From Gemmataceae bacterium (GTDB lineage: Bacteria > Planctomycetota > Planctomycetia > Gemmatales > Gemmataceae): a DNA stretch of 33,907 bases. The stretch covers positions 1 through 33,907 of the forward strand of contig JAIEQO010000921.1 in assembly GCA_019747655.1 (NCBI GenBank). The letters are read 5' to 3'. Below, one piece after another: positions 4,000 to 19,615 of the stretch; within the stretch, counting starts at the first letter, position 1, and the number at the start of each line of letters is the position of its first letter. The notes below the pieces were generated by a model, which was not told the origin of the DNA, did no database searches, and saw only the letters and a list, made by a program, of their open reading frames with translations. A program made the translations under genes and the position numbers.

Positions 4000-5001
4000 T
4001 CAGCCGAGGGTGTGGGTGGTGATGCGGTTGTGGCCGACGCAGACGAGCGACTTGGCGTCGGCCGACAGGGCGAAGTCGTGGACGTGCATCGGCACCTTCT
4101 CCTGCCGCAGCACCTTCTTGGCGGCCGCGTCGAAGAACAGGAGGAAGCCCTCGTTGGCCCCGCCGGCCCCGAGCAGCCAGGACCCGTCCGGGGCGAACGC
4201 GAGCCGGTTGACGAGGCCGTTGAACTTGTCGCTCTGGAACTCCGCGACCCGCTTCCCGGCGGACCAGTCGAACACCTCGACCCGGGCCTTCCCCTCCAGG
4301 TGGTCGATGTTGCCGATCTTGCCGGTCCCGCCGGCGGCCAGCAGCTTCCCGTCCGGCGAGAAGGCGACCGACCGTACCCCGCCGATCGAGTGCAGACGCT
4401 GGACCGGGTCCCAGGTGTACATCACCGGGGCCTCGACGGCGGCCACCTCCTTGCCCGACTCGACCTCCCAGACGGCGACGTGGCCGACCTTGTCGGCGGT
4501 GGCCAGGCGCTTGCCGTCGGCCGAGAACGCGGCCGCGTAGAGCATCGACGGGAAGTCGTGGGGCGTCTGCTCCTTGTGGCCGCGGAGGTCGCGGACGAGC
4601 TTGCCGGACGCGGCGTCCCACAGCTTGCAGGCCATGTCGTCGGCGACGCTGGCTACCAGCTTCCCGTCCGGCGACGCGACCACCTTGCGAATCCACTTGC
4701 CATGCGCATCGACCCTGCGCATCTCCTTCCCGGCCTCGGCGTCCCACCAGACGAGCTTGCGGTCGTACCCGCCGGAAACGAGGTGCTTGCCGGCGAGGGC
4801 CACGCCGGTGACGTAGCTGCCGTGGGCGTACAGCTCCTTCGGCTCGACCTTGTCCGCGGCGAGGTCGGCCCCGTAGACCTTGAAGTCCTGCGAGGCGAGG
4901 TAGACCCGCTGGGAGCCGGGCGCGGCCGCGACGGCGAACACGGCCGCCGGCCGGTCGAGGCTCTTGACCTGCTTGAGCGTGTCCGGGTTGGGTGCGGTCA
5001 T
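4000..5001 (-). CDS. WD40-repeat protein, cytoplasmic
   Basis: A 333-residue protein made almost wholly of WD40-type blades: examples are [19 protein letters not shown]...[28 protein letters not shown]...[26 protein letters not shown]...[27 protein letters not shown] and [18 protein letters not shown]. About seven blades would close a single beta-propeller. No signal peptide or membrane segment is visible, so it is expected to be a cytoplasmic scaffold. The ATG overlaps the stop of the upstream aspartic-protease gene as ATGA (4998-5001), indicating translational coupling; pdxA follows after 23 bases. The open frame extends further upstream but that part is the shadow of the protease gene. The partner or ligand is unknown. 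Confidence 0.88.
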
Positions 5002-5411
5002 GACGTGCCCGTGGGGGTCAAAGTCCGGAGCCAGAACGAGTCGTTGTTGCCGCCGTACTCGCCGAGCCGGAGGACCGGCAGCCCGACCAGCCCGACGAAG
5101 TTGAGGGACGACCGGCCGACGGTCCGGGCGGTCTCGTCGTTCCCGTAACCGAGGACGAACTCGACCAAGTCCAGTTCGGGGGTGTAAAGCCGCACCCACC
5201 CGGCCCGGTGGGGGCCGAACCGGCCGGTCCGGTCCCGGGCCGGCACCCAGTCGTGGACGAGTTGGGCGAACAGGTCTTCGCCAAGGATCACGGCCGCTGG
5301 GCTGCCGGTGTCGGCCACCAGTTCCATGTGACGGACCGAGCCGCCGGGCAACATGAAGCCGAGGCCGAGCCACGGCCGCCCGGCCCGGTACAGGTTGCGC
5401 TGCTCGGGCAT
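4998..5411 (-). CDS. Retropepsin-like (clan AA) aspartic protease, putative
   Basis: A 137-residue soluble protein. It carries one DTG active-site motif in [15 protein letters not shown] and, near the C-terminus, a hydrophobic-Gly segment [12 protein letters not shown] that resembles the second retropepsin signature before the final strand (FWLRTL). One DTG per chain means it would act as a homodimer, as retropepsins do. No signal peptide is visible. It lies 18 bases after the DUF5678-like gene and overlaps the WD40 gene by 4 bases. From memory, small proteases of this kind and DUF5678 proteins occur side by side in several bacterial phyla, which supports the pairing; this was not checked. 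Substrate unknown. The family call rests on two short motifs. Confidence 0.6.
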
Positions 5412-5429
5412 GGGGGCGATTCCGGCCGG

Positions 5430-5708
5430 TTAAAGGATGTCGAGGGGCTCCGGGTCGCCCTCGCCGGCGGTCACGACGAGGGCGTGTGGGTCGGTCCGGC
5501 CGATCTCGTTGAGCCGAGCGTTGAGCGCGGGATAGGTGTCGGCGTCGGCGACGATCCGGCCGCCGTCGATCGCCACCTGGCGGCCCGGCGGGTAGGTCGC
5601 GTCGATCTCGGCCCGCAGCCGCAGGTAGGCGGCGAAGTTGACCTCGTAAGCCGCGTCCGCGGCGGCGCGGCGGGCCCGGGCGTCATCGGTGTCGTCGGTG
5701 ATGACCAT
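5430..5708 (-). CDS. Small DUF5678-like protein
   Basis: A 92-residue protein from the ATG at 5708, which has GGGAG 6 bases upstream (a further upstream GTG start lacks this). The N-terminal half is a charged helix (RARRAAADAAYEVNFAAYLRLRAEI); the C-terminal half, PPGRQVAIDGGRIVADADTYPALNARL...LVVTAGEGDPEPLDIL, follows the pattern of DUF5678 ('vaf..g.vva.g.d..el...a...G.....v..vp'). The role is unknown. It is the first gene of a compact run with an aspartic-protease-like gene, a WD40 gene and pdxA, so it may be a partner, substrate or inhibitor of the protease. Assignment to DUF5678 is by eye. Confidence 0.6.
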   Translation of the reverse strand: MVITDDTDDARARRAAADAAYEVNFAAYLRLRAEIDATYPPGRQVAIDGGRIVADADTYPALNARLNEIGRTDPHALVVTAGEGDPEPLDIL

Positions 5709-5753
5709 TTGGGGCTCCCGTGATGGTGCCACCCCTATCGTACCAGACCCGGC

Positions 5754-8773: not shown

Positions 8774-9343
8774 GCGGGGCTCCGGGCGGGACGGGAGAGG
8801 CGGCGGGCAGGCAGGCGGGGCCGACACCGACGAGTATACCCGGGCCGTACCGGGGCCGCAAAGGTTTATCCCGCCCGGGTCGTCCCGGGGCCGAATTGTT
8901 GCGGCCCGACTTGAGCCGAAATCGGCGAATCCGCCCGGGCCGTCGGGGCTCGAACTGGTACGGCCCGGAGGACCCCGGCCGCCGGGATTCCGTTGCCGAA
9001 CGGCCCCCCGGCGGGGCCGCCGGGGCGGGTCTGGCACGACCAGAAGAAGCCGCACCACGCCACGCCGGGGGCGGCATTCCGCCGGGTTCGGCTGGCCCCG
9101 GGCGGACCGGCCCGGGGCCGGCGCGGGTAAGTTCTCTTCGACCTCCCGGCCGGCCCGGGCGGGTGCGGGTGGTCCGGCCGGCGGGTGCGGCCCATAACCC
9201 CCGGCGGGCCAAACTTTACCCGCCCCCGCCCCGTCTTGAGTGAGTACGCGGCCCCGCCCGCCGCCGGACGGACGATTGCCCCGGGGACGCCCTCCCCCGC
9301 ACATACACGGTTCGCCCCACCGGACAGGTACAGGACGCGCACC
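8774..9343. other. 570-base intergenic region between divergent genes
   Basis: Separates the DUF1549/1553 gene (minus) from the giant secreted protein gene (plus). It is very GC-rich with several short self-complementary CCGG-type runs. A minus-strand promoter-like sequence is at 8833-8862. No convincing plus-strand promoter could be picked out. Open frames across it (including an upstream extension of the giant gene to 9185) have no ribosome binding site and Pro/Gly/Arg-rich content, so no gene is called. Confidence 0.5.
8833..8862 (-). promoter_or_regulatory. Putative sigma70-type promoter for the DUF1549/DUF1501 genes
   Basis: On the minus strand TTTGCG (8862-8857) and TATACT (8838-8833) are separated by 18 bases. 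The -10 matches the consensus at 5 of 6 and the -35 is weak. Transcription would start near 8826, about 50 bases before the ATG at 8773. By eye only. Confidence 0.4.
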
Positions 9344-12300
9344 ATGTCGACCCCCGCCTTCTCCAAGTTCCTCCGCCGGTGGGCCCAGCAGAAGCGGCCG
9401 GCGGCCCCGGCCAGCCGCCGGGCCCGCCTCCGGGTCGAGGAGGTGGAGGCCCGGCTGGTCCCGGTGACCGCCCCGACCCCGCTGGCCGGGTCCGCCCAGG
9501 CGATCGTCGGGGGGGCGTTCAACTCGCTGTCGTTCGTCCAGCCGTCGGCCGTCGCCGACCCGACGAACCCGGACAACCTGGTGATGGTGACCAACAACGG
9601 CACCTTCATGATCGCCTACGCGTCGAGCGACGGCGGGGCGAGTTGGGTGCCGTTCTTCGACAACAACCAGTACAACCTGGTCCCGGTCCCGCCGCCGGGC
9701 GCCCCGAACCCGCCCCAGGGGTACATCCGGGCGTTCCGCATCGCCGACCCGTCGATCGACCCGGGGCCCGGGTTCAAGCGGCGGGACCAGAAGAATTACA
9801 CCAACACCACCTCGGCGGCGGCCGCGTTCGGGCGGGACGGGAAGGTGTACATCGCCGCCGTCGAGCAGAACGCCGCCCCCGGCCAGCTGGCGACCAGCGG
9901 GGCGGTGGTCGTGTACGCCTTCGACTTCAACGGCGGCGTCCCGCAGATCATCGACCTCGACGAGAAGCTCGGCGCGGAGAACGTCAACGACAGCTTCTTC
10001 GGCTTCACCGCGGGGGGTTACCAGGACAGCCGGGCGAACGTCATCTACCGCTGGCTGACCACCGGGACGAACGAGCGGGAGGGGGCGTTCAACCTGTCCA
10101 TCGCCACCGACAACAACCGGCCGACGTTCACCGACCCGGAGACCGGGCGGACGGCCCGGGACACGATGTCCGGCAAGGGGGTGTACGTCGCCTGGAACAC
10201 CGGCACCTTCGCCACCCCGTTCGAGGACGGGCGGGCCCGGCGGATCGACCCGACCAGCACCAGCGCGATCCTGGTGGCCGGGTCGTCCGACGGCGGGGTG
10301 AACTTCTCCACCCCGGTGCTGGCCAACTCGAACGCCTACTACACCCCGAACACCGGGGCCGCCCTGCCGACCGTCGCCTTCTCCCCGGCCGTCGCCAAGG
10401 CCGGGGCCCCGGCCGGCGGGCAGTTGACCTTCACCTGGCAGACGATCGGCGGCCGGACCACCTCGAACGACCCGATCCCGGGGACCGCGTTCTCCGACGC
10501 CAGCCGCCCGGACAACGGCAACCCGAACCGCCCGGCGGTGGCCTCCGGCAAGAAGCGGTACGACGTCGGCCGGACCATCAACGACGGCATCTCGCCCCCC
10601 CAGGGGGCCCCGGCCGGCACCCCCGACACGCCCGGGGTCACCAACGCCACCTTCGACGTCAACCTGTCCGACCTCGGGAACCTGACGGCCGACTCGCCGA
10701 TCACCGACCTGAACTTCGGGCTGGGCATCTTCCACCCCGACCCGTCCCAGCTCTCGGTGGAGGTGATCAGCCCGGCCGGGGACCGGGTCGTGCTGTTCGG
10801 CAACTGGATGAACGGGCTCGGCCAGAAGCCGACCGCGGGGCAGACCTACGGGCTGGAGACCGGGGGGAACAACGGGGTCGGGGTGCGGACGTTCGCCACC
10901 AACCCGATCCGGGCCAACTTCGTCGGGACGGTGTTCGACGACGAGGCCCCCCGGTACATCAACGACGGGGTTCTGGGGACCCGCCGGGTGTCCGACCCGT
11001 ACGCCTATAACCTGAAGACCGACAGCGTGTTCGGCGGGCTCCTGTCCACCCTGTACGCCGGCAAGACGGCGAACGACCTGGTCGGCACCTGGACGGTCCG
11101 CATCCTCGACGTCCGGAACAGCGGGAGCCCGCCCCCGTTCCAGCAGCTGACGTTCGTCGAGCTGCACGCCTCCGGGTACATCTCGAACACCGGGTTCGGG
11201 CCGGACGAACAGCTGGTCGGGACCGACGGGTTGGCCGCCGCCGTGCCGGTCAACCCGAACGGGACCGGCCAGGACATCGACGGGACCGGCCCGCTGACCC
11301 AGCCGGCGGTCTCCCCGGTGGTCGGCATCGCCGGCGGGACCAGCACCGCCTACGACCGGTCGCTCGGGTCGTTCTCCCCGTACGCCGGCCGGCTGTACAC
11401 CGCCTACGCCGCCCCGGTGTACGACGGCGCGACACTGGTCGACAGCAACATCTTCCTCCGGTACTCGGACAACAACGGGGGCACGTGGTCCCCGGCCGTC
11501 CGGGTCAACGACGACAACGCCAACGACAACTTCAGCGAAGGCCGGCGGTGGCAGTTCCAGCCGACCGTGGCCGTCGACGACGTCACCGGGGCGGTGGTGG
11601 TCACCTGGTTCGACGCCCGGAACGACGCCAGCGACGGCCGGGTGGCGACGTACATCGCCACCAGCATCGACGGCGGGAACACGTTCAGCGCCCGGCTCGA
11701 GGGCGGGGCGTTCTCCAACCAGACCCCGTCCACCCAGGCGTACCTGAACACCCCGAAGCGGGCGACCGACGCCGTGACCGGCCGGCAGGTCGACCTGGAG
11801 CCGATCCCGAGCAACTTCAGCACCTTCAACGTCGACCAGAACAACAACCCGGCCGCCCCGTTCGGGCCCGGCATCCGGCAGTCGCTGATCGCCTTCGACG
11901 GCCGGGTCTACCCGTTCTGGTCCGGGAACAACAACGCCCCCGGGACCCGCATCTTCGTCGGCCGGTACCCGGCCGCCGACAACGACAACCAGCCGGTCCG
12001 GATCACCGCCGGGCCGCGGGTCGTCGGCGGCGACCAGGGGCCGGTCACCGACCCGGTCCGGGTCAACCGGGACGGCCAGCCGTTCGACTACAACACCACG
12101 TTCGCCGACGACGGCACCCGGCTGCTGGACGGGTTCGTCGTCACCTTCGACCGGGCGGTCGACACCAGCACCTTCGACGGCGGCGACGTCCGGGTCTTCT
12201 ACCGCGGGCCGGCCACCGACCGGAACGTCCCGGCCACCCAGCTCCCGGTCGCCGAGGTGTTCGCCCTCAACGCCGTCGCCCCGGACCCGGCGTTCCCGAA

Positions 12301-15300
12301 CCTCCGGAACGCCACCCGGTTCTTCGTCCGGCTCCGGGACCCGCAGGGGGCGGTCGGGACGTACAGCTACGTCGTCGGCCCGAACATCCGGGACCGCATC
12401 CGGACCGACGACCCGTTCGCCCCGGGCGGGGTCGTCCTCGGGAACGAGATGGACCAGGACGCGGACGGCAACCGGGCCGAGACGGGCGGCGGGCCGGGCC
12501 AGCCGGACGACCGGTTCGCCGTCCCGGCGTCGGCCACCGGCGGCCCGTTCGTCCTGCCGTTCGCCACCAACAGCCTGCCGCTGATCATCCCCGGCCCGCA
12601 CGTCGTCGGGTCGGCCGCCGCCGGCCGCCCGGCCGGCCAGCCGGACACCGAGGACAACCTGGTCCTCAACGCCGGGAACGACACCCTGGACGTGACCTTC
12701 GACCGGGACATGGTCCCGTCGTCGTTCACCGCCGCCAACGTCCGCCGGATCACCGGCCCGATCGGGGACATCGCCGGCCCGTTCACCGTCACCCCCCTGA
12801 ACGTCGACCCGATCACCGGCGGGGCCCGGACGTTCCGGATCACCTTCGCCCGGCAGGTGCTCAGCGGCGGGTACACGGTCGAGTTCGGGCCGGACCCGAA
12901 CGGCAACCTGCCCCGGGCGGTGGCCCAGCCGCGGCTGGTCCTCAGCCTGCCGGTCGGTGCGACCTCGGCCGCCGTCCGGTTCGACCGGGACATCTCCCGG
13001 GCGGTGACCGCGGCCGACGTGGTCCGGATCACCGGGCCGAACGGCCCGCTGGCCGGGCCGTTCGACATCACCGGGGGCGGGCGGGACTTCACCGTCACCT
13101 TCCCGGCCGTCCCGGTCGCCGGGCAGTACGTGATCGAGTTCCGGGACGCCCCGGACCGGACCGACACCCCGCTCCGGGTGCCGGCCAACGCGGCCGGCCC
13201 GGTGGCCACCAACCTGAACCCGGTCCCGGCGGTCGACACCAACCTGAACGCCGGGCTGGCCACCCTGCGGGGCGGGGACCGGACCCAGCTCACCCCCGAG
13301 ACGGTGACCACCCGGACCTACGGCCCGCCGGGGCCGTCGACGATCCCGATCCCGTCCGGCTCGACCGCCAGCCCGGCGGTGGCCGAGTTCCCGATCAACA
13401 TCACCGACGACTTCGCCGTCCAGCAGCTGCTGGCGACCAACCCGGCCGACCGGCGGGTCATCCAGGTCCGGCTGACGGTCGACTTCCCGAACGTCCCCGA
13501 CCTGGTCGGCGAGCTGGTCGCCCCGGACGGGTCGACGGTGCTGCTGTTCAACCGGGTCGGGACCCAGGGCCAGCCGAACCAGGCGAACCTGACCAACACC
13601 CTGTTCGAGGACACGGCCGGGACCCCGATCTCGTCGGCCGCCCCGCCGTTCACCGGCCCCGGGGCGTTCAACCCGGAGGAGCCGTTCGCCCGGCTGGTGG
13701 TCCGGCCGGAGGGCCCGGTGTCGTCCCGCGGCACCTGGCGGCTGCGGGTGACCAACACCGGGGCCGGGGCCGGGGTGATCCGGAACTTCCAGCTCACCCT
13801 GCCGTTCGCCATCTCCGGGTCCGGGCTGGGTGAGGCGGTGGCCGACCGGTTCACCGCCGGGTTCCGCATCTTCACCCAGGACCCGTCCAACCCGCTCAGC
13901 CGGCAGCAGTGGACGCCGGTCGGGCCGGCCAGCCAGAACGCGACGGTCAACCCGGCCGGGTTCAACACCGGGCGGGTGACCGCCCTGGCCGTCGACCCGT
14001 CCGACCCGTCCGGGAACACGGTGTACGCCGGCGGGGCGACCGGCGGGGTGTGGAAGACGACGAACTTCCTGACCACCGACCCGGTCGGCCCGGACTGGGC
14101 CCCGCTGACCGACTTCGGCCCGACCGTGACCTCCGGCGGGGCGTTCGGGAACACCCTGAACATCGGGTCGATCGCGGTCTTCGGCCGGAACAACGACCCG
14201 ACCCAGTCGGTCGTCCTGGTGGCCACCGGGGAAGGCGACACCCTCGGCGAGTACGTCCAGGGCGGCGGCCTCCGGACCGAGGAGTCGCCGGGCGTCGGGT
14301 TCCTGCTGTCGGTCGACGGCGGGCGGACCTGGCGGCTCTTGGACAGCTCGGTCAACGTCGACCGGACGACCGGCGAGTACCTGGCGATCTCGTCCGGCCA
14401 GCGGGACCACCGGTTCGTCGGGACGGTCGGGTTCCGGGTGGCCATCGACCCGACCCCGACCCCGGCCGGCGAGCTGATCTTCTACGCCGCCCTGAGCGAC
14501 GCCCCGTCCCGGACCGCGGCCCAGCGGACCGGCGGCATCTACCGGTCGAACGACACCGGCAAGACCTGGACGCTGGTCCGGGCCGGGCAGGCGACCGACG
14601 TGACCCTGGCCCCGGGCAGCGCCCAGACGCTGAACATCCCGGACGACCCGAACAACCCGAACCTCAGCCCGTTCCTCCAGGTGATGTACGCCGCCTTCCG
14701 CGGGGAGGGGGTGTTCTTCAGCCCGCAGGCCCCGGACGCGACCTCGGCCGGCGGCCCGGGGGCCCTGACGCGGGTGGACGGCCGCGGCCAGAACCCGCTG
14801 TTCCGCGACTTCCAGATCATCCCGACCCGGCAGATCCCGATCGCCACCTTCCCCGGGCAGGCGGACCGGACCCCCGGCGGGAACAAGGGGCGGATCACCC
14901 TGGCCGTCCCGGCGGTGACCAACGACGTGATCCGCAACGTCGCCTACCAGGGGTGGGTGTACGCCCTGGTGGCCGGGGCCGGGCAGGACGCCTCGGGCGG
15001 CCCGATCGACGGGCTGTACCTGTCCAAGGACTTCGGCCGGAACTGGACCCGGGTCCGGCTGAACGAGTTCCGCCCGCCGGTCGCGGCCGGGGTGTTCCAG
15101 GGCGGGGCGTTCGGGACGAACGACGTGTCGGCCCCCCAGTCCAACCCGTTCGGGCTCGACAACGCCCCGTCCGGCGGGAACTTCGCCCAGTCGATCGCCG
15201 TCGACCCGCGGAACCCGAACATCGTCTACCTCGGCGGGCTGAACCAGGCGACCCGCCAGCCGCTCGGCGGGTACATGCGGGTGGACGTGACCAAGCTCGA

Positions 15301-18300
15301 GGACGCCCAGGCGGTGGTGGCGTACAACAACAGCCTGCCGAACGCCGCCCCCAACGCGGCCGGCACCAACGTCGGCGGCCCGCGGCTCCAGTTCGGCTCC
15401 CCGCCGGTCGCCGCGGACCTGTCCCGGTTCACCGGGTCGGTGGTCGTCGGGCCGTACGAGGACCCGGTCTATGCCGGGCCCGGCGGGAACTACGGCATCT
15501 TCCGCCCGGACAACCTGCTGTCGGTCAACCGGGGGTTCCTGAACGTCTTCCGGAACCCGGCCCGGCCGTTCGTGTCGAACGCCACCCTGCTGTTCACCAA
15601 CGTCGACTCGAGCGCCGGGGCAGGGTTCCAGAACCGCGGGTTCGGGGCCCAGACCCAGTACATCGACGCCGAGACCGAGACGAACGTCCACGAGATCCTG
15701 ACGATCGTCGACCCGCTGACCGGGAAGACCCGGCTGATCACCGGGGACGACCAGGGGGTGGCCAGCCAGGTGGCCAACGACGACGGGTCGACCGACGACG
15801 CCGCCGTCGGGTTCGCCCGGGCCCCGAACAAGCGGCGGAACGGCGACCTGCAGATCGGCCAGTTCTTCCAGGGGGCGGCCCAGCCGAGTCAGCTGGCGGC
15901 CGACATCGCCGGGGTCCAGCGGCTGTTCTACGCCACGTCCGACAACAACGGGTACCCGCGGTCGACCAACACCGTCCTCCAGGACGGCGGCATCCGGGAC
16001 TCGCGGTTCACCGCCCCGCCGGCCCCGTACACCTCGCCGGAGGGGACGGTCGGGTACTCGGGGACCGGGGTGGCGACCGACCAGACCGGGACCGGGGTGG
16101 CCTACGAGTTCCGGTGGCCCGGGCTCGGCGGCCAGGGGACCGACTTCTTCCGGGTCATCCCCCGGAACACCTACCAGGAGGGGAACGGGCTGAACGACGG
16201 GTTCAGCCGGACCAACGGGCTGCTCCAGGACCGGTCGAACAACGGCATCCTGGGGGGGGTGCCCGACGACCCGCTCCGGTTCAGCGGCCAGTGGCGGCCG
16301 GACGCCGGGTCCAACTTCGCCGTCAACCCGATCAACCCGAACGCCATCGTGATGTCGGCGAACGGGGACAACCAGGGGGTCGGGCGGCTGTTCCGGACGA
16401 CCGACCGGGGGCTCAACTGGTTCGTCGTCGGGGAGACGAACACCGTCACCCAGGCCCTCGGCCAGGGGGACTTCGCGGCCCCCGGGCTGCCCGGCCCGGG
16501 GCTCGACGGGACGTACTCGGCGGCGGTCGCGTTCGGGGCCCCGGACCCCAACCAGCCGACGCTCTTGGACAACTTCATCTACGCCGGGACCAACGGCGGG
16601 CGGGTGTTCGTCACCCGGACCGGGACGGCCCCGTGGCTGAACATCACCGGGCCGGTCGGGTCGACGTTCGGGGTCGGCGGGTCGCTCGACGGGTCGCCGG
16701 TCCAGCAGATCGTGGCCAACCCCCGGCGGGGCAGCACCGACCTGTTCGCCGTCACCCTCCGCGGGGTGTACTACAAGGCCAACGCGTTCGACACGGCGGT
16801 CGGCTGGCAGAACGTCACCGGCAACCTGTTCAGCCTGACCCGGGCGGCGTTCGGCGGGTCCGGGGAGCAGGTCGCGTCGCTGAAGTACCTGACCACCATC
16901 GCCGCCGACTGGCGGTTCGCCATCCCCCAGGACCCGGAGGACCCGAACAGCCCGACCTTCCCGGTCCTGTACGTCGGGGGCGAGGGCGGGGTGTTCCGGT
17001 CGGCCGACAAGGGGACCACCTGGGACTACTTCCCGGCGGCCACCACCTACACCGACGTGCCGAGCGGGAAGACCTACGACATCCCGGCCGGCGGGTACCT
17101 GCCGAACGTCCACGTGACCGACCTGGACCTGTCCCTCGGGGACATCGACCCGGCCAACGGGCTGCCCCGGCAGTCCCAGTCCGGCGGGCTGAACCTGCTG
17201 TTGGCCACCACCTACGGCCGCGGCCAGTTCGCCATCCGGCTGAGCAACCAGCTGCCGCCGAACAGCTTCGTGTCCGGCCCGCGGGTGGTCCAGCTGATCA
17301 ACCCGAACTCCGTCGGCGGCCCGTCCGACCGGTTCCAGGTGGTCTTCAGCGGGCCGGTCGACCCGAACACGTTCACCGCCGCCGACGTCGCCCTGACCGG
17401 GCCGAACGGGGCGATCACCGTCCAGTCCGTCACCCCGGTCGGCGGGGGCACCCTGCCGACCACCTTCGACATCCTGTTCCAGCCGGTCGCCGGGCAGGCC
17501 CCGGTGAACGTGGTCATCGGGGCCAACCCCGGGGCCGGGAAGGACGTCCCCGCCGTGACCGACCTCGGCGGGAACGTGATGAACCAGAACGGGAACGGGA
17601 CGAACGGGGAGTCGCTGGTCGACCAGTACCGGACCACCATCGTCCTGAACGCGGCCACCAACAACCGGCTGGTCGTCGCCCAGGCCCCGGCCACGGCGGT
17701 CGCCGGGGAGTCGGTGAGCGTGACCATCGAGGCCCGGGACGCGGACGACCAGATCTTCGACGGGTCGGCCCCCGGCCGGCCGGCCCTGAACGGGACCGTC
17801 ACCCTGTCCCCGGCCCCCGGGACCGGGGCGTTCAGCCCGACCACCGTGGACCTGGTGAACGGCCGGGCGACGTTCCAGATGGTGTTCGAGAAGGCCGGGG
17901 ACCAGACCGTCCGGGCCGACCTGACCTCGGGCGGGCTGAACGCCAACGGGACCGACTTCACCGTCCGGGTCCGGGCGGCCGCCGCCTCCCAGTTCGTCCT
18001 CGACCCGCCGGACACCATCCTGACCGTCGGGCTGAGCAACCCGGACGTGCCCTTCACCATCGCCGCCCGGGACCGGTTCGGGAACGCGGCCGCCGACTAC
18101 GCCGGGCCGGTCACCGTCGCCGTCACCGGGGCCGGCGGGACCGTCCCCGAGACGCTCAACATGGCCAACGGGACCGGGACGTTCACCGGCCGGTTCACCA
18201 ACACCGGGACGGCCACCGTGACCGTCTCCGGCCCGGACCCGACCAACGCGGCCAACACCATCTCGGGGTCGGCCACGGTGTCGGTCAGCTCCGGGACGGC

Positions 18301-19615
18301 GGCCCGGCTGGAGGTGACGGCCGGGGGCGGCCCGTTCGTCATCGGCAACCCGGTCACGGTCACCGTCCGGGCCCTGGACGCGGGCGGGAACCTCGCCGAC
18401 TTCGACAGCCGGTTCACCATCGACTTCGGCGACCCGGCGGCGGTGGTCAGCCCGGCCGACCCGGTTCTGACCGACGGGACGGCGACCGTGACCGTCACCT
18501 TCGGGACCCCGGGGACGTACACCGCCCGGGTGACCTCCGGGGCCCTGACCGGGCAGAGCGGGCCGATCACCGTCCTGGCCACCCCGCCCAAGCCGAAGCC
18601 GACCACCACCCTGCCCAAGGTGACGGCCGTCGGGTCCGGGGGGGGCGGCAGCCCGGTCGTCCAGGTAGTCAACCCGGACGCCTCCCCGCTCACCCAGTTC
18701 GTCCCGTTCCCGGCCGGGTTCAACGGCGAGGTCGACGCGGCCGGGGGCGGGTTCACCGGCGGCCTCCGGGTGGCGGTGGCCGACGTCACCGGGGACGGGG
18801 TGCCGGACTACGTGGTCGGCAGCGGCCCGGGGATCACCGCCATCGTCCAGGTCCGGGACGGGGCGACCGGGAAGGCGACCAACATCCAGCCGTTCGAGAC
18901 GTTCAAGGGCGGGGTGTTCGTGGCCGTCGGGGACGTGACCGGGGACGGGACGGCCGACGTGGTCGTCACCCCGGACCTGTCCGGCGGGCCGCGGGTGTCG
19001 GTCTACCGCGGCGGGGACTTCCGCCGGGTGGCCAACTTCTTCGGGATCAAGGACGAGAACTTCCGGGGCGGGGCCCGGGCCGGGGTGGGGGACGTCAACG
19101 CCGACGGGTTCGCCGAGGTGGTCATCTCGGCCGGGTTCGGCGGCGGCCCGCGGATCTCGGTGTACGACGGGGCGGCCCTGGCCCAGGGCCGGGAGATCAA
19201 CCCGGTCAGCGACTTCTTCCTGTTCGAGGAGGGGCTGCGGAACGGGGCCTACGTGGCCGTCGGGGACGTGGACGGGGACGGGTTCGCCGACCTGATCGGC
19301 GGGGCCGGCCCGGGCGGCGGGCCGCGGGTCCTGACGATCAGCGGCAAGACCCTGCTGCAGAGCGGGGCGGACGCCGCCATCGGGGCCCCGCTGGCCAACT
19401 TCTTCGCCGGCGACCCCGAGAACCGGGGCGGGGTCCGGGTGACGGTCAAGAACCTGGACAACGACGACCTCGCCGACGTCGTCACCGGGGCCGGGGAGGG
19501 CGGCGGGTCCGCCGTCACCTCCTACGCCGGCAAGACCCTGATGGAGGGCGGGACCGACCCGCTCTTCGGGTTCGACGCCTTCCCGGACTTCTCGGGCGGG
19601 GTGTTCGTCGGCTAA
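9344..19615 (+). CDS. Giant secreted protein: BNR propellers, P-domain-like, Ig-like and FG-GAP modules
   Basis: A 3423-residue protein. There is no classical signal peptide; instead a basic N-terminus carries RLRVEEVEARLVPV (28-41), a motif common at the start of large planctomycete secreted proteins. Modules by eye: Asp-box propeller units near residues 94, 314, 707 and 775; P-domain-like jelly-roll about 433-616; Ig-like domains about 886-1270; second P-domain-like module about 1348-1491; a large Asp-box region about 1520-2640 (SVDGGRTW, SNDTGKTW, SKDFGRNW, TTDRGLNW, SADKGTTW); another Ig-like domain about 2645-2760; three invasin/filamin-like domains about 2774-3080; a PKPKPTT linker; and FG-GAP calcium-binding-type repeats (DVTGDGVPD, DVNADGFAE, DVDGDGFAD) from about 3096 to the end. 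It is probably cell-surface or matrix material. The start ATG at 9344 has only a weak AGGA upstream; the frame is open further 5' but without support. Confidence 0.9.
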   Translation: MSTPAFSKFLRRWAQQKRPAAPASRRARLRVEEVEARLVPVTAPTPLAGSAQAIVGGAFNSLSFVQPSAVADPTNPDNLVMVTNNGTFMIAYASSDGGASWVPFFDNNQYNLVPVPPPGAPNPPQGYIRAFRIADPSIDPGPGFKRRDQKNYTNTTSAAAAFGRDGKVYIAAVEQNAAPGQLATSGAVVVYAFDFNGGVPQIIDLDEKLGAENVNDSFFGFTAGGYQDSRANVIYRWLTTGTNEREGAFNLSIATDNNRPTFTDPETGRTARDTMSGKGVYVAWNTGTFATPFEDGRARRIDPTSTSAILVAGSSDGGVNFSTPVLANSNAYYTPNTGAALPTVAFSPAVAKAGAPAGGQLTFTWQTIGGRTTSNDPIPGTAFSDASRPDNGNPNRPAVASGKKRYDVGRTINDGISPPQGAPAGTPDTPGVTNATFDVNLSDLGNLTADSPITDLNFGLGIFHPDPSQLSVEVISPAGDRVVLFGNWMNGLGQKPTAGQTYGLETGGNNGVGVRTFATNPIRANFVGTVFDDEAPRYINDGVLGTRRVSDPYAYNLKTDSVFGGLLSTLYAGKTANDLVGTWTVRILDVRNSGSPPPFQQLTFVELHASGYISNTGFGPDEQLVGTDGLAAAVPVNPNGTGQDIDGTGPLTQPAVSPVVGIAGGTSTAYDRSLGSFSPYAGRLYTAYAAPVYDGATLVDSNIFLRYSDNNGGTWSPAVRVNDDNANDNFSEGRRWQFQPTVAVDDVTGAVVVTWFDARNDASDGRVATYIATSIDGGNTFSARLEGGAFSNQTPSTQAYLNTPKRATDAVTGRQVDLEPIPSNFSTFNVDQNNNPAAPFGPGIRQSLIAFDGRVYPFWSGNNNAPGTRIFVGRYPAADNDNQPVRITAGPRVVGGDQGPVTDPVRVNRDGQPFDYNTTFADDGTRLLDGFVVTFDRAVDTSTFDGGDVRVFYRGPATDRNVPATQLPVAEVFALNAVAPDPAFPNLRNATRFFVRLRDPQGAVGTYSYVVGPNIRDRIRTDDPFAPGGVVLGNEMDQDADGNRAETGGGPGQPDDRFAVPASATGGPFVLPFATNSLPLIIPGPHVVGSAAAGRPAGQPDTEDNLVLNAGNDTLDVTFDRDMVPSSFTAANVRRITGPIGDIAGPFTVTPLNVDPITGGARTFRITFARQVLSGGYTVEFGPDPNGNLPRAVAQPRLVLSLPVGATSAAVRFDRDISRAVTAADVVRITGPNGPLAGPFDITGGGRDFTVTFPAVPVAGQYVIEFRDAPDRTDTPLRVPANAAGPVATNLNPVPAVDTNLNAGLATLRGGDRTQLTPETVTTRTYGPPGPSTIPIPSGSTASPAVAEFPINITDDFAVQQLLATNPADRRVIQVRLTVDFPNVPDLVGELVAPDGSTVLLFNRVGTQGQPNQANLTNTLFEDTAGTPISSAAPPFTGPGAFNPEEPFARLVVRPEGPVSSRGTWRLRVTNTGAGAGVIRNFQLTLPFAISGSGLGEAVADRFTAGFRIFTQDPSNPLSRQQWTPVGPASQNATVNPAGFNTGRVTALAVDPSDPSGNTVYAGGATGGVWKTTNFLTTDPVGPDWAPLTDFGPTVTSGGAFGNTLNIGSIAVFGRNNDPTQSVVLVATGEGDTLGEYVQGGGLRTEESPGVGFLLSVDGGRTWRLLDSSVNVDRTTGEYLAISSGQRDHRFVGTVGFRVAIDPTPTPAGELIFYAALSDAPSRTAAQRTGGIYRSNDTGKTWTLVRAGQATDVTLAPGSAQTLNIPDDPNNPNLSPFLQVMYAAFRGEGVFFSPQAPDATSAGGPGALTRVDGRGQNPLFRDFQIIPTRQIPIATFPGQADRTPGGNKGRITLAVPAVTNDVIRNVAYQGWVYALVAGAGQDASGGPIDGLYLSKDFGRNWTRVRLNEFRPPVAAGVFQGGAFGTNDVSAPQSNPFGLDNAPSGGNFAQSIAVDPRNPNIVYLGGLNQATRQPLGGYMRVDVTKLEDAQAVVAYNNSLPNAAPNAAGTNVGGPRLQFGSPPVAADLSRFTGSVVVGPYEDPVYAGPGGNYGIFRPDNLLSVNRGFLNVFRNPARPFVSNATLLFTNVDSSAGAGFQNRGFGAQTQYIDAETETNVHEILTIVDPLTGKTRLITGDDQGVASQVANDDGSTDDAAVGFARAPNKRRNGDLQIGQFFQGAAQPSQLAADIAGVQRLFYATSDNNGYPRSTNTVLQDGGIRDSRFTAPPAPYTSPEGTVGYSGTGVATDQTGTGVAYEFRWPGLGGQGTDFFRVIPRNTYQEGNGLNDGFSRTNGLLQDRSNNGILGGVPDDPLRFSGQWRPDAGSNFAVNPINPNAIVMSANGDNQGVGRLFRTTDRGLNWFVVGETNTVTQALGQGDFAAPGLPGPGLDGTYSAAVAFGAPDPNQPTLLDNFIYAGTNGGRVFVTRTGTAPWLNITGPVGSTFGVGGSLDGSPVQQIVANPRRGSTDLFAVTLRGVYYKANAFDTAVGWQNVTGNLFSLTRAAFGGSGEQVASLKYLTTIAADWRFAIPQDPEDPNSPTFPVLYVGGEGGVFRSADKGTTWDYFPAATTYTDVPSGKTYDIPAGGYLPNVHVTDLDLSLGDIDPANGLPRQSQSGGLNLLLATTYGRGQFAIRLSNQLPPNSFVSGPRVVQLINPNSVGGPSDRFQVVFSGPVDPNTFTAADVALTGPNGAITVQSVTPVGGGTLPTTFDILFQPVAGQAPVNVVIGANPGAGKDVPAVTDLGGNVMNQNGNGTNGESLVDQYRTTIVLNAATNNRLVVAQAPATAVAGESVSVTIEARDADDQIFDGSAPGRPALNGTVTLSPAPGTGAFSPTTVDLVNGRATFQMVFEKAGDQTVRADLTSGGLNANGTDFTVRVRAAAASQFVLDPPDTILTVGLSNPDVPFTIAARDRFGNAAADYAGPVTVAVTGAGGTVPETLNMANGTGTFTGRFTNTGTATVTVSGPDPTNAANTISGSATVSVSSGTAARLEVTAGGGPFVIGNPVTVTVRALDAGGNLADFDSRFTIDFGDPAAVVSPADPVLTDGTATVTVTFGTPGTYTARVTSGALTGQSGPITVLATPPKPKPTTTLPKVTAVGSGGGGSPVVQVVNPDASPLTQFVPFPAGFNGEVDAAGGGFTGGLRVAVADVTGDGVPDYVVGSGPGITAIVQVRDGATGKATNIQPFETFKGGVFVAVGDVTGDGTADVVVTPDLSGGPRVSVYRGGDFRRVANFFGIKDENFRGGARAGVGDVNADGFAEVVISAGFGGGPRISVYDGAALAQGREINPVSDFFLFEEGLRNGAYVAVGDVDGDGFADLIGGAGPGGGPRVLTISGKTLLQSGADAAIGAPLANFFAGDPENRGGVRVTVKNLDNDDLADVVTGAGEGGGSAVTSYAGKTLMEGGTDPLFGFDAFPDFSGGVFVG

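Follow-up and report, generated by a model that had tools for sequence, protein, structure and literature searches.

Within the window, meaning the whole 33,907-nt stretch of Gemmataceae DNA analyzed here (contig JAIEQO010000921.1), a small gene for a divergent DUF5678 protein lies directly upstream of a gene for a retropepsin-like aspartic protease. On balance, we favor the view that the DUF5678 protein is a regulatory or targeting partner dedicated to this protease, which would act as a homodimer, and that the two genes form an accessory two-gene cassette. The locus is laid out as follows:

5430-5708, minus strand: gene 1, divergent DUF5678 protein, 92 amino acids
4998-5411, minus strand: gene 2, single-domain retropepsin-like aspartic protease, 137 amino acids
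5304-5312, minus strand: codons for the catalytic D34-T35-G36 of gene 2
5737-5742, minus strand: candidate promoter, a promoter-like TACGAT hexamer in a GGTAYNAT motif, 5' of gene 1
5713-5719, minus strand: Shine-Dalgarno-like GGGAGCC, 5' of gene 1, picked out by eye
4000-5001, minus strand: flank, outside the module, WD40 beta-propeller protein, 333 amino acids
5754-7220, minus strand: flank, outside the module, DUF1501 protein (longest open reading frame, start not fixed)

The first-pass annotation had described three tightly coupled genes, and this layout holds: all three are minus-strand open reading frames, gene 1 stops 18 nt before the start of gene 2, and the stop of gene 2 overlaps the WD40 start as ATGA. 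Gene 1 and gene 2 are under purifying selection, with dN/dS values of 0.20 for the small gene and 0.33 for the protease between the window's genome (G000) and a genome of the same genus (G091), and of 0.14 and 0.16, respectively, between G030 and G031, which marks both as real genes. The pair has a candidate promoter of its own in the GGTAYNAT element, and each of the 11 syntenic loci that were compared retains its TA..T core; the element was not seen among the DUF1501-WD40 sequences inspected at empty sites, that is, loci without the pair. Elsewhere in the window, a very long open frame occupies positions 9185-19615 of the plus strand (3476 codons from the first start); the part read resembles a large extracellular repeat-type protein, and the frame contains no strong tandem DNA repeats.

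By sequence, the window protease has no match in Pfam, NCBIfam, or the PDB, and PDB sequence searches with the small-protein or the protease family returned nothing useful. Its predicted structure, an AF2 model built from 12 homologs (pLDDT 91.9, pTM 0.85), clearly adopts a single-lobe retropepsin fold: the best match among solved structures is Rickettsia APRc (5c9f; Z 12.0, rmsd 3.2 Å over 117 residues, 14% identity), retroviral proteases including HIV protease come next (Z about 10), and Foldseek matches the model to 5c9b at 2.9e-4. The catalytic motif, two hydrophobic residues followed by D-T/S-G, is present as VADTGS at D34, and together with the predicted fold it bears out the retropepsin-like label originally given to gene 2. 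Conservation of the DTG motif in orthologs, on which the first-pass proposal hinged, is complete, with D34, T35, and G36 invariant in 12/12 intact homologs. Near the C terminus, GLVGLP, which fits the second hydrophobic-hydrophobic-glycine motif of retropepsins, has G107 and G110 invariant in 12/12, and the glycine matching that of the second motif is invariant in 13/13 members of a wider protease set. The underlying alignments (A1 and A3) exclude the frameshifted proteases of G009, G012, and G020 and the truncated ones of G029 and G033. To our knowledge, all characterized retropepsins are homodimers with one DTG aspartate per subunit.

The small protein scores 12.7 bits (E 0.12) against Pfam DUF5678 (PF18929), below the gathering cut-off of 23.2 bits, and we therefore file it as a divergent DUF5678 homolog rather than as a Pfam member. 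In this qualified sense its earlier DUF5678-like label stands, since 15 of its 17 close homologs match DUF5678 at E<=1 (best 1.4e-4) and a profile-profile comparison by hhalign relates the small-protein family to Pfam-recognized DUF5678 proteins (95.6%, E 1.1e-8). The model of the small protein (pLDDT 81.7) predicts a long N-terminal helix followed by beta-beta-alpha-beta; its search of the PDB gave no significant match (best E 1.2), which says nothing of the newness of the fold. In the literature, we met DUF5678 in a table of plant-pathogen proteins, where its function is not discussed, and found no paper linking DUF5678 to a protease.

Of the 95 family genomes surveyed, 15 carry the protease and 17 carry the small gene. 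In all 15 protease-bearing genomes the small gene lies directly upstream, and the two additional small genes have a protease stump downstream, so that the co-occurrence outside this genome that the first-pass annotation had left to be checked is found. The two genes decay asymmetrically: the protease is broken in 5/17 small-gene loci (three frameshifts and two truncations, in the genomes excluded above; single-base frameshifts may be sequencing errors), whereas the small gene is broken in 0/17. Because these five loci keep the small open reading frame without an intact protease, the partner may also serve some purpose independent of the protease. The distribution of the pair is patchy, with 2/6 genomes of the window's genus carrying it, and its location varies. 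In g1 and g7 it separates DUF1501 from WD40; inspection by eye places it behind another planctomycete operon in G028 and G033 and between apparent pyruvate dehydrogenase E1 and E2 genes in G030 and G031.

The pairwise identities of the small protein and the protease co-vary (r 0.81 over 12 genomes; 0/2000 permutations as high). At the eight syntenic loci, r is again 0.81 for small protein and protease, compared with 0.32 for small protein and WD40 (199/2000) and 0.20 for protease and WD40 (325/2000); the permutation test leaves shared ancestry in, for which the WD40 gene is the control. The pair thus has a trait expected of toxin-antitoxin systems, though not specific to them: its two small genes are neighbors and are inherited together. 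A single-protein scan of wider genome contigs gave no match, and an alignment scan gave 14 loci, 12 of which are family genomes already found; the other two are a fragment (L065) and a Pirellulaceae metagenome-assembled genome with a contig that begins within the protease (L062). Profile A1, run against 392 phylum genomes with 10 candidates scored per genome, recovered its own genome and one weak match in G319 (2.9e-4), and found no match in the viral contigs searched.

Beyond the family, a DUF5678 search of 246 phylum genomes identified 30 places, 24 of them above the cut-off, and a retropepsin adjoins or is fused to DUF5678 in 20 of these 24. The chance of a retropepsin neighbor is about 0.1% per gene (79 PF13650 places in 73.2 Mb; the table has 78 in about 71.6 Mb, with the outcome unchanged), giving a binomial probability of 5e-56. 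The four above-cut-off places without a retropepsin (L073, L078, L079, and L081), one of them a receiver-DUF5678 protein, count against the partner reading. Below the cut-off, 3/6 places have a retropepsin (L085, L086, and L094), that of L086 being a frameshifted fusion. The neighbors were identified by Pfam (9/10 scanned match), by a PF13650 genome search (14 places coincide), and by HMM (9/9 at E<=3.1e-8; best of 450 shuffles 0.41); another downstream protein, at L097, has the motif and no Pfam match. Seen from the protease side, 14 genomes, selected because they contain DUF5678 or, in one case, as the window's own, have 78 PF13650 places in all. Of these, 14 stand beside DUF5678 or are fused to it, 40 had their upstream side examined, and 24 fall outside these sets. 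Among the 40 further stand-alone retropepsins, seven have an upstream open reading frame matching DUF5678 models at E<0.05.

Fused DUF5678-protease proteins (L074 and L090) have the same order as the gene pair. L074 (200 amino acids) matches DUF5678 at 1.7e-8 and Asp_protease_2 at 2.4e-10, and the C709 fusion of the window's own genome matches at 4e-6 and 1.5e-14, respectively. A response-regulator receiver domain precedes DUF5678 in two proteins, L096, which is followed by a protease, and L078, which is not. The open reading frame after the latter (G165:C161) encodes something other than a retropepsin. At L088 (G239:C392), a dUTPase frame runs stop-free into a DUF5678 domain with a retropepsin directly downstream, an arrangement that could be read either as a fusion or as a later internal start. 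The window protease family resembles the other DUF5678-linked proteases weakly by profile (18%), and the link between them rests on fold and position. Phages searched with one DUF5678 protein gave no match, nor did plasmids searched with four queries, three of them DUF5678 or DUF5678-like proteins and the fourth a fusion (chance-level hits only at E<=5); these searches thus provide no evidence of DUF5678 outside the phylum, the small partners of the cyanobacterial pairs described below being of other kinds.

The window's genome carries ten units with model support (C1106, which is the window, and C477, C486, C726, C812, C900, C921, C996, C1054, and C709), or twelve with the weaker C358 and C802. 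Two DUF5678-like domains stand in tandem in C1054. The C812 paralog (G000:C812:5997-6371; L082 and L207) has DSA in place of DTG/DSG, so its retropepsin is possibly inactive. The retropepsin of C760 has a different small partner, weakly matching the PADLOC-DB model PDC-M52A (0.0058), and that of C929 lacks such a partner. As the pairing recurs in this genome and in its relatives, the small protein is probably a dedicated partner.

A PADLOC search with the window pair gave no match at E<=0.1 for either protein, and the A+B combination of PDC-M08 was not found; the WD40 protein matches HEAT-ARM_XIII over a short repeat stretch. In the wider sets, models of two phage-defense candidates in PADLOC-DB, PDC-M08 and PDC-M52, do find matches. 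PDC-M52B matches 6/13 retropepsins (best 5.9e-7), PDC-M08B matches several (up to 4/13 per model, best 3.9e-6), and PDC-M08A matches 2/18 DUF5678-like proteins (1.5e-4 and 0.035) over about 23 residues. According to PMC11811056, the PDC class comprises unpublished candidates of Payne et al. 2021. We found no paper naming PDC-M08 or PDC-M52 and none joining retropepsin, aspartic protease, and toxin-antitoxin; PDC is absent from the main text of the two PADLOC papers. The first-pass remark that no described system of this composition was known to it has to be qualified: we too found no paper on one, but these candidates are of like composition, and because an unpublished PADLOC-DB class shares its composition, the pairing is not categorically new.

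In cyanobacterial plasmids, a small gene of the C802 type occurs in nine records, a 'clan AA aspartic protease' in ten, and both in eight; PDC-M52A matches the small partner of a cyanobacterial plasmid pair at 5.4e-6. On a Nostoc plasmid, a sister-type pair is embedded in a BREX-1 locus, with pglZ on one side and pglX on the other, and other plasmid pairs of this type lie near ParDE, RelE, PIN, or nuclease genes. Comparisons of the C802/Nostoc-type small partner with DUF5678 (14.6% and 1.1%; HMM 0.042) are at most suggestive of homology. The Tolypothrix sp. PCC 7712 plasmid NZ_CP063787.1 carries two different pairs of a small gene and an aspartic protease about 10 kb apart, at 123693-124375 (L217) and 133627-134276 (L219).

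The third gene of the locus encodes a WD40 protein, as labeled from the outset (Pfam, 5e-26), and is a bystander of the gene pair. An ortholog is present in 69/95 family genomes versus 15 for the protease, and it adjoins DUF1501, its usual upstream neighbor, with or without the pair. Its median identity across the eight syntenic genomes is 0.75, compared with 0.41 for the small protein and 0.50 for the protease. Thirty WD40 loci were examined, ten of them with the pair. At the nine occupied sites where the DUF1501 end was found, 719-758 nt separate the DUF1501 stop from the WD40 start, against 78-111 nt in seven pair-less genomes; other pair-less spacers measure 189 nt (G092), 367 nt (G089), and 690 nt with another open reading frame (G045), and in the rest of the 30 loci one or both spacer ends were not located. 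Empty sites showed no remnant of the pair, and those genomes gave no match to either gene. Since pair-less relatives keep DUF1501 and WD40 with a short spacer, the pair has been either inserted or lost as a unit. The protease tail reaches the WD40 ATG through a C-rich leader resembling that of the empty sites, and for this reason the ATGA overlap probably arose as a side effect of insertion. In G045:C158 (L127), the different open reading frame that fills the junction, of ~190 amino acids, has a hairpin-like sequence, TTAGCCCGACGCG..., at its two borders in inverted copies, and may be SMI1/KNR4-like. The spacers of empty sites L107, L110, and L119 contain GC-rich hairpins, TTAGC.GCGACC...GGTCGCGGCTAA, that are terminator- or REP-like.

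These observations bear directly on the first-pass suggestion that all three genes form a module in which the WD40 propeller is a substrate scaffold. An obligate trio is refuted by the WD40 distribution, the empty sites, and the lack of co-variation, and even a looser three-gene module strikes us as exceedingly improbable: the ATGA overlap, which would favor it, looks like a by-product, and the downstream gene is not WD40 in six family loci (G028-G031, G033, and G042). What survives of the suggestion is the two-gene unit of small protein and single-DTG protease, which may serve regulated proteolysis or act in a toxin-antitoxin-like way. That this unit is a decaying passenger with no selected function is hardly more credible; the broken proteases would fit, but the low dN/dS of intact pairs and their invariant catalytic motif argue otherwise. 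Alternatively, DUF5678 could be a substrate or pro-region, the cognate protease freeing an N-terminal part such as the receiver domain. The usual place of a pro-region is N-terminal to the protease, and DUF5678 is indeed found C-terminal to variable N-terminal regions and, in fusions, N-terminal to the protease. We nevertheless consider this doubtful, given that the small protein of the window family has only a helix before the domain and that the small gene is kept where no intact protease remains.

Another alternative is a toxin-antitoxin or abortive-infection system, in which the protease would be an effector cutting an essential protein and DUF5678 both antitoxin and phage sensor. It is the same molecular pairing that we favor with a specific physiology added, so the two readings overlap, and in this specific form we regard it as unlikely, if worth keeping in view. 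The matches of PDC-M52B and PDC-M08B to retropepsins and of PDC-M08A and PDC-M52A to some small partners are consistent with it, but the window proteins themselves have no such match and those of PDC-M08A are short. Likewise, the BREX-1 pair and those beside ParDE or RelE point toward defense, but the small partner in the BREX-1 locus belongs to the C802 type, at most a putative homolog of DUF5678. More generally, a role in defense or addiction is favored by the patchy presence of the pair, which has been inserted or lost at a fixed locus, by the ten to twelve divergent copies of a single genome, by the one-sided decay of the protease, and by the BREX neighbor. It is disfavored by the metabolic, rather than defense, surroundings of the Gemmataceae loci seen, by the fused forms, which misfit a labile antitoxin, and by the low dN/dS.

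We therefore return to the dedicated-partner reading. The product of gene 2 would be a cytoplasmic retropepsin that, judging from its fold, forms a homodimer with one DTG aspartate per subunit. The product of gene 1 would bind this protease and control or direct it, holding it in check, activating it, or supplying it with substrate, and the variable N-terminal extensions of other DUF5678 proteins would supply the input. Physical association is favored by the fusions and the gene order, and a role in control or targeting by the variable N-terminal domains. As the cassette behaves as an accessory element, defense or addiction is its likeliest physiology, and a plausible one.

With a pairing that is nearly constant and with fusions that occur naturally, the molecular role of DUF5678 can be tested directly, and a dedicated partner family would offer a handle on the regulation and substrates of bacterial retropepsins, most of which have no known function. 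More speculatively, and in our view improbably, DUF5678-superfamily proteins and retropepsins could constitute widespread, unrecognized protease-based anti-phage or abortive-infection modules, about a dozen per planctomycete such as this one. In such modules the small protein would detect infection and then release an executioner resembling HIV protease, or form a part of it. If so, retropepsins would join the effectors of phage defense, and the unpublished PADLOC candidates would gain a family-level basis.

Several known systems invite comparison. Pfam DUF5678 (PF18929), of which the small protein is a divergent relative, is a family without assigned function. The PDC-M08 and PDC-M52 candidates are likewise two-gene systems, with B models that match retropepsins and A models describing small proteins of 86 positions, and PDC-M08A weakly matches two DUF5678-like partners of other pairs; they differ in that the window proteins fall outside their matches at E<=0.1. 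The closest solved fold to the window protease is that of APRc (RC1339) of Rickettsia conorii (PDB 5c9b, 5c9d, and 5c9f), which, by the crystal numbering, is a piece of a longer protein. In RloA/RloB/RloC of P. aeruginosa, a retropepsin is also encoded in an operon with partners, but that system is secreted, with an inactive transglutaminase and an ATP-grasp protein as partners (PMC12239564). The nearest parallel in organization is RimB-RimK of Pseudomonas, a bacterial retropepsin with a genetically linked partner and natural hybrids of the two; its partner is an ATP-grasp ligase and its substrate polyglutamylated RpsF, and nothing DUF5678-like appears in it (PMC11957791). As described there, RimB stimulates RimK, and this precedent makes a retropepsin working with a partner a possible mode of action for the pair described here (PMC11957791).
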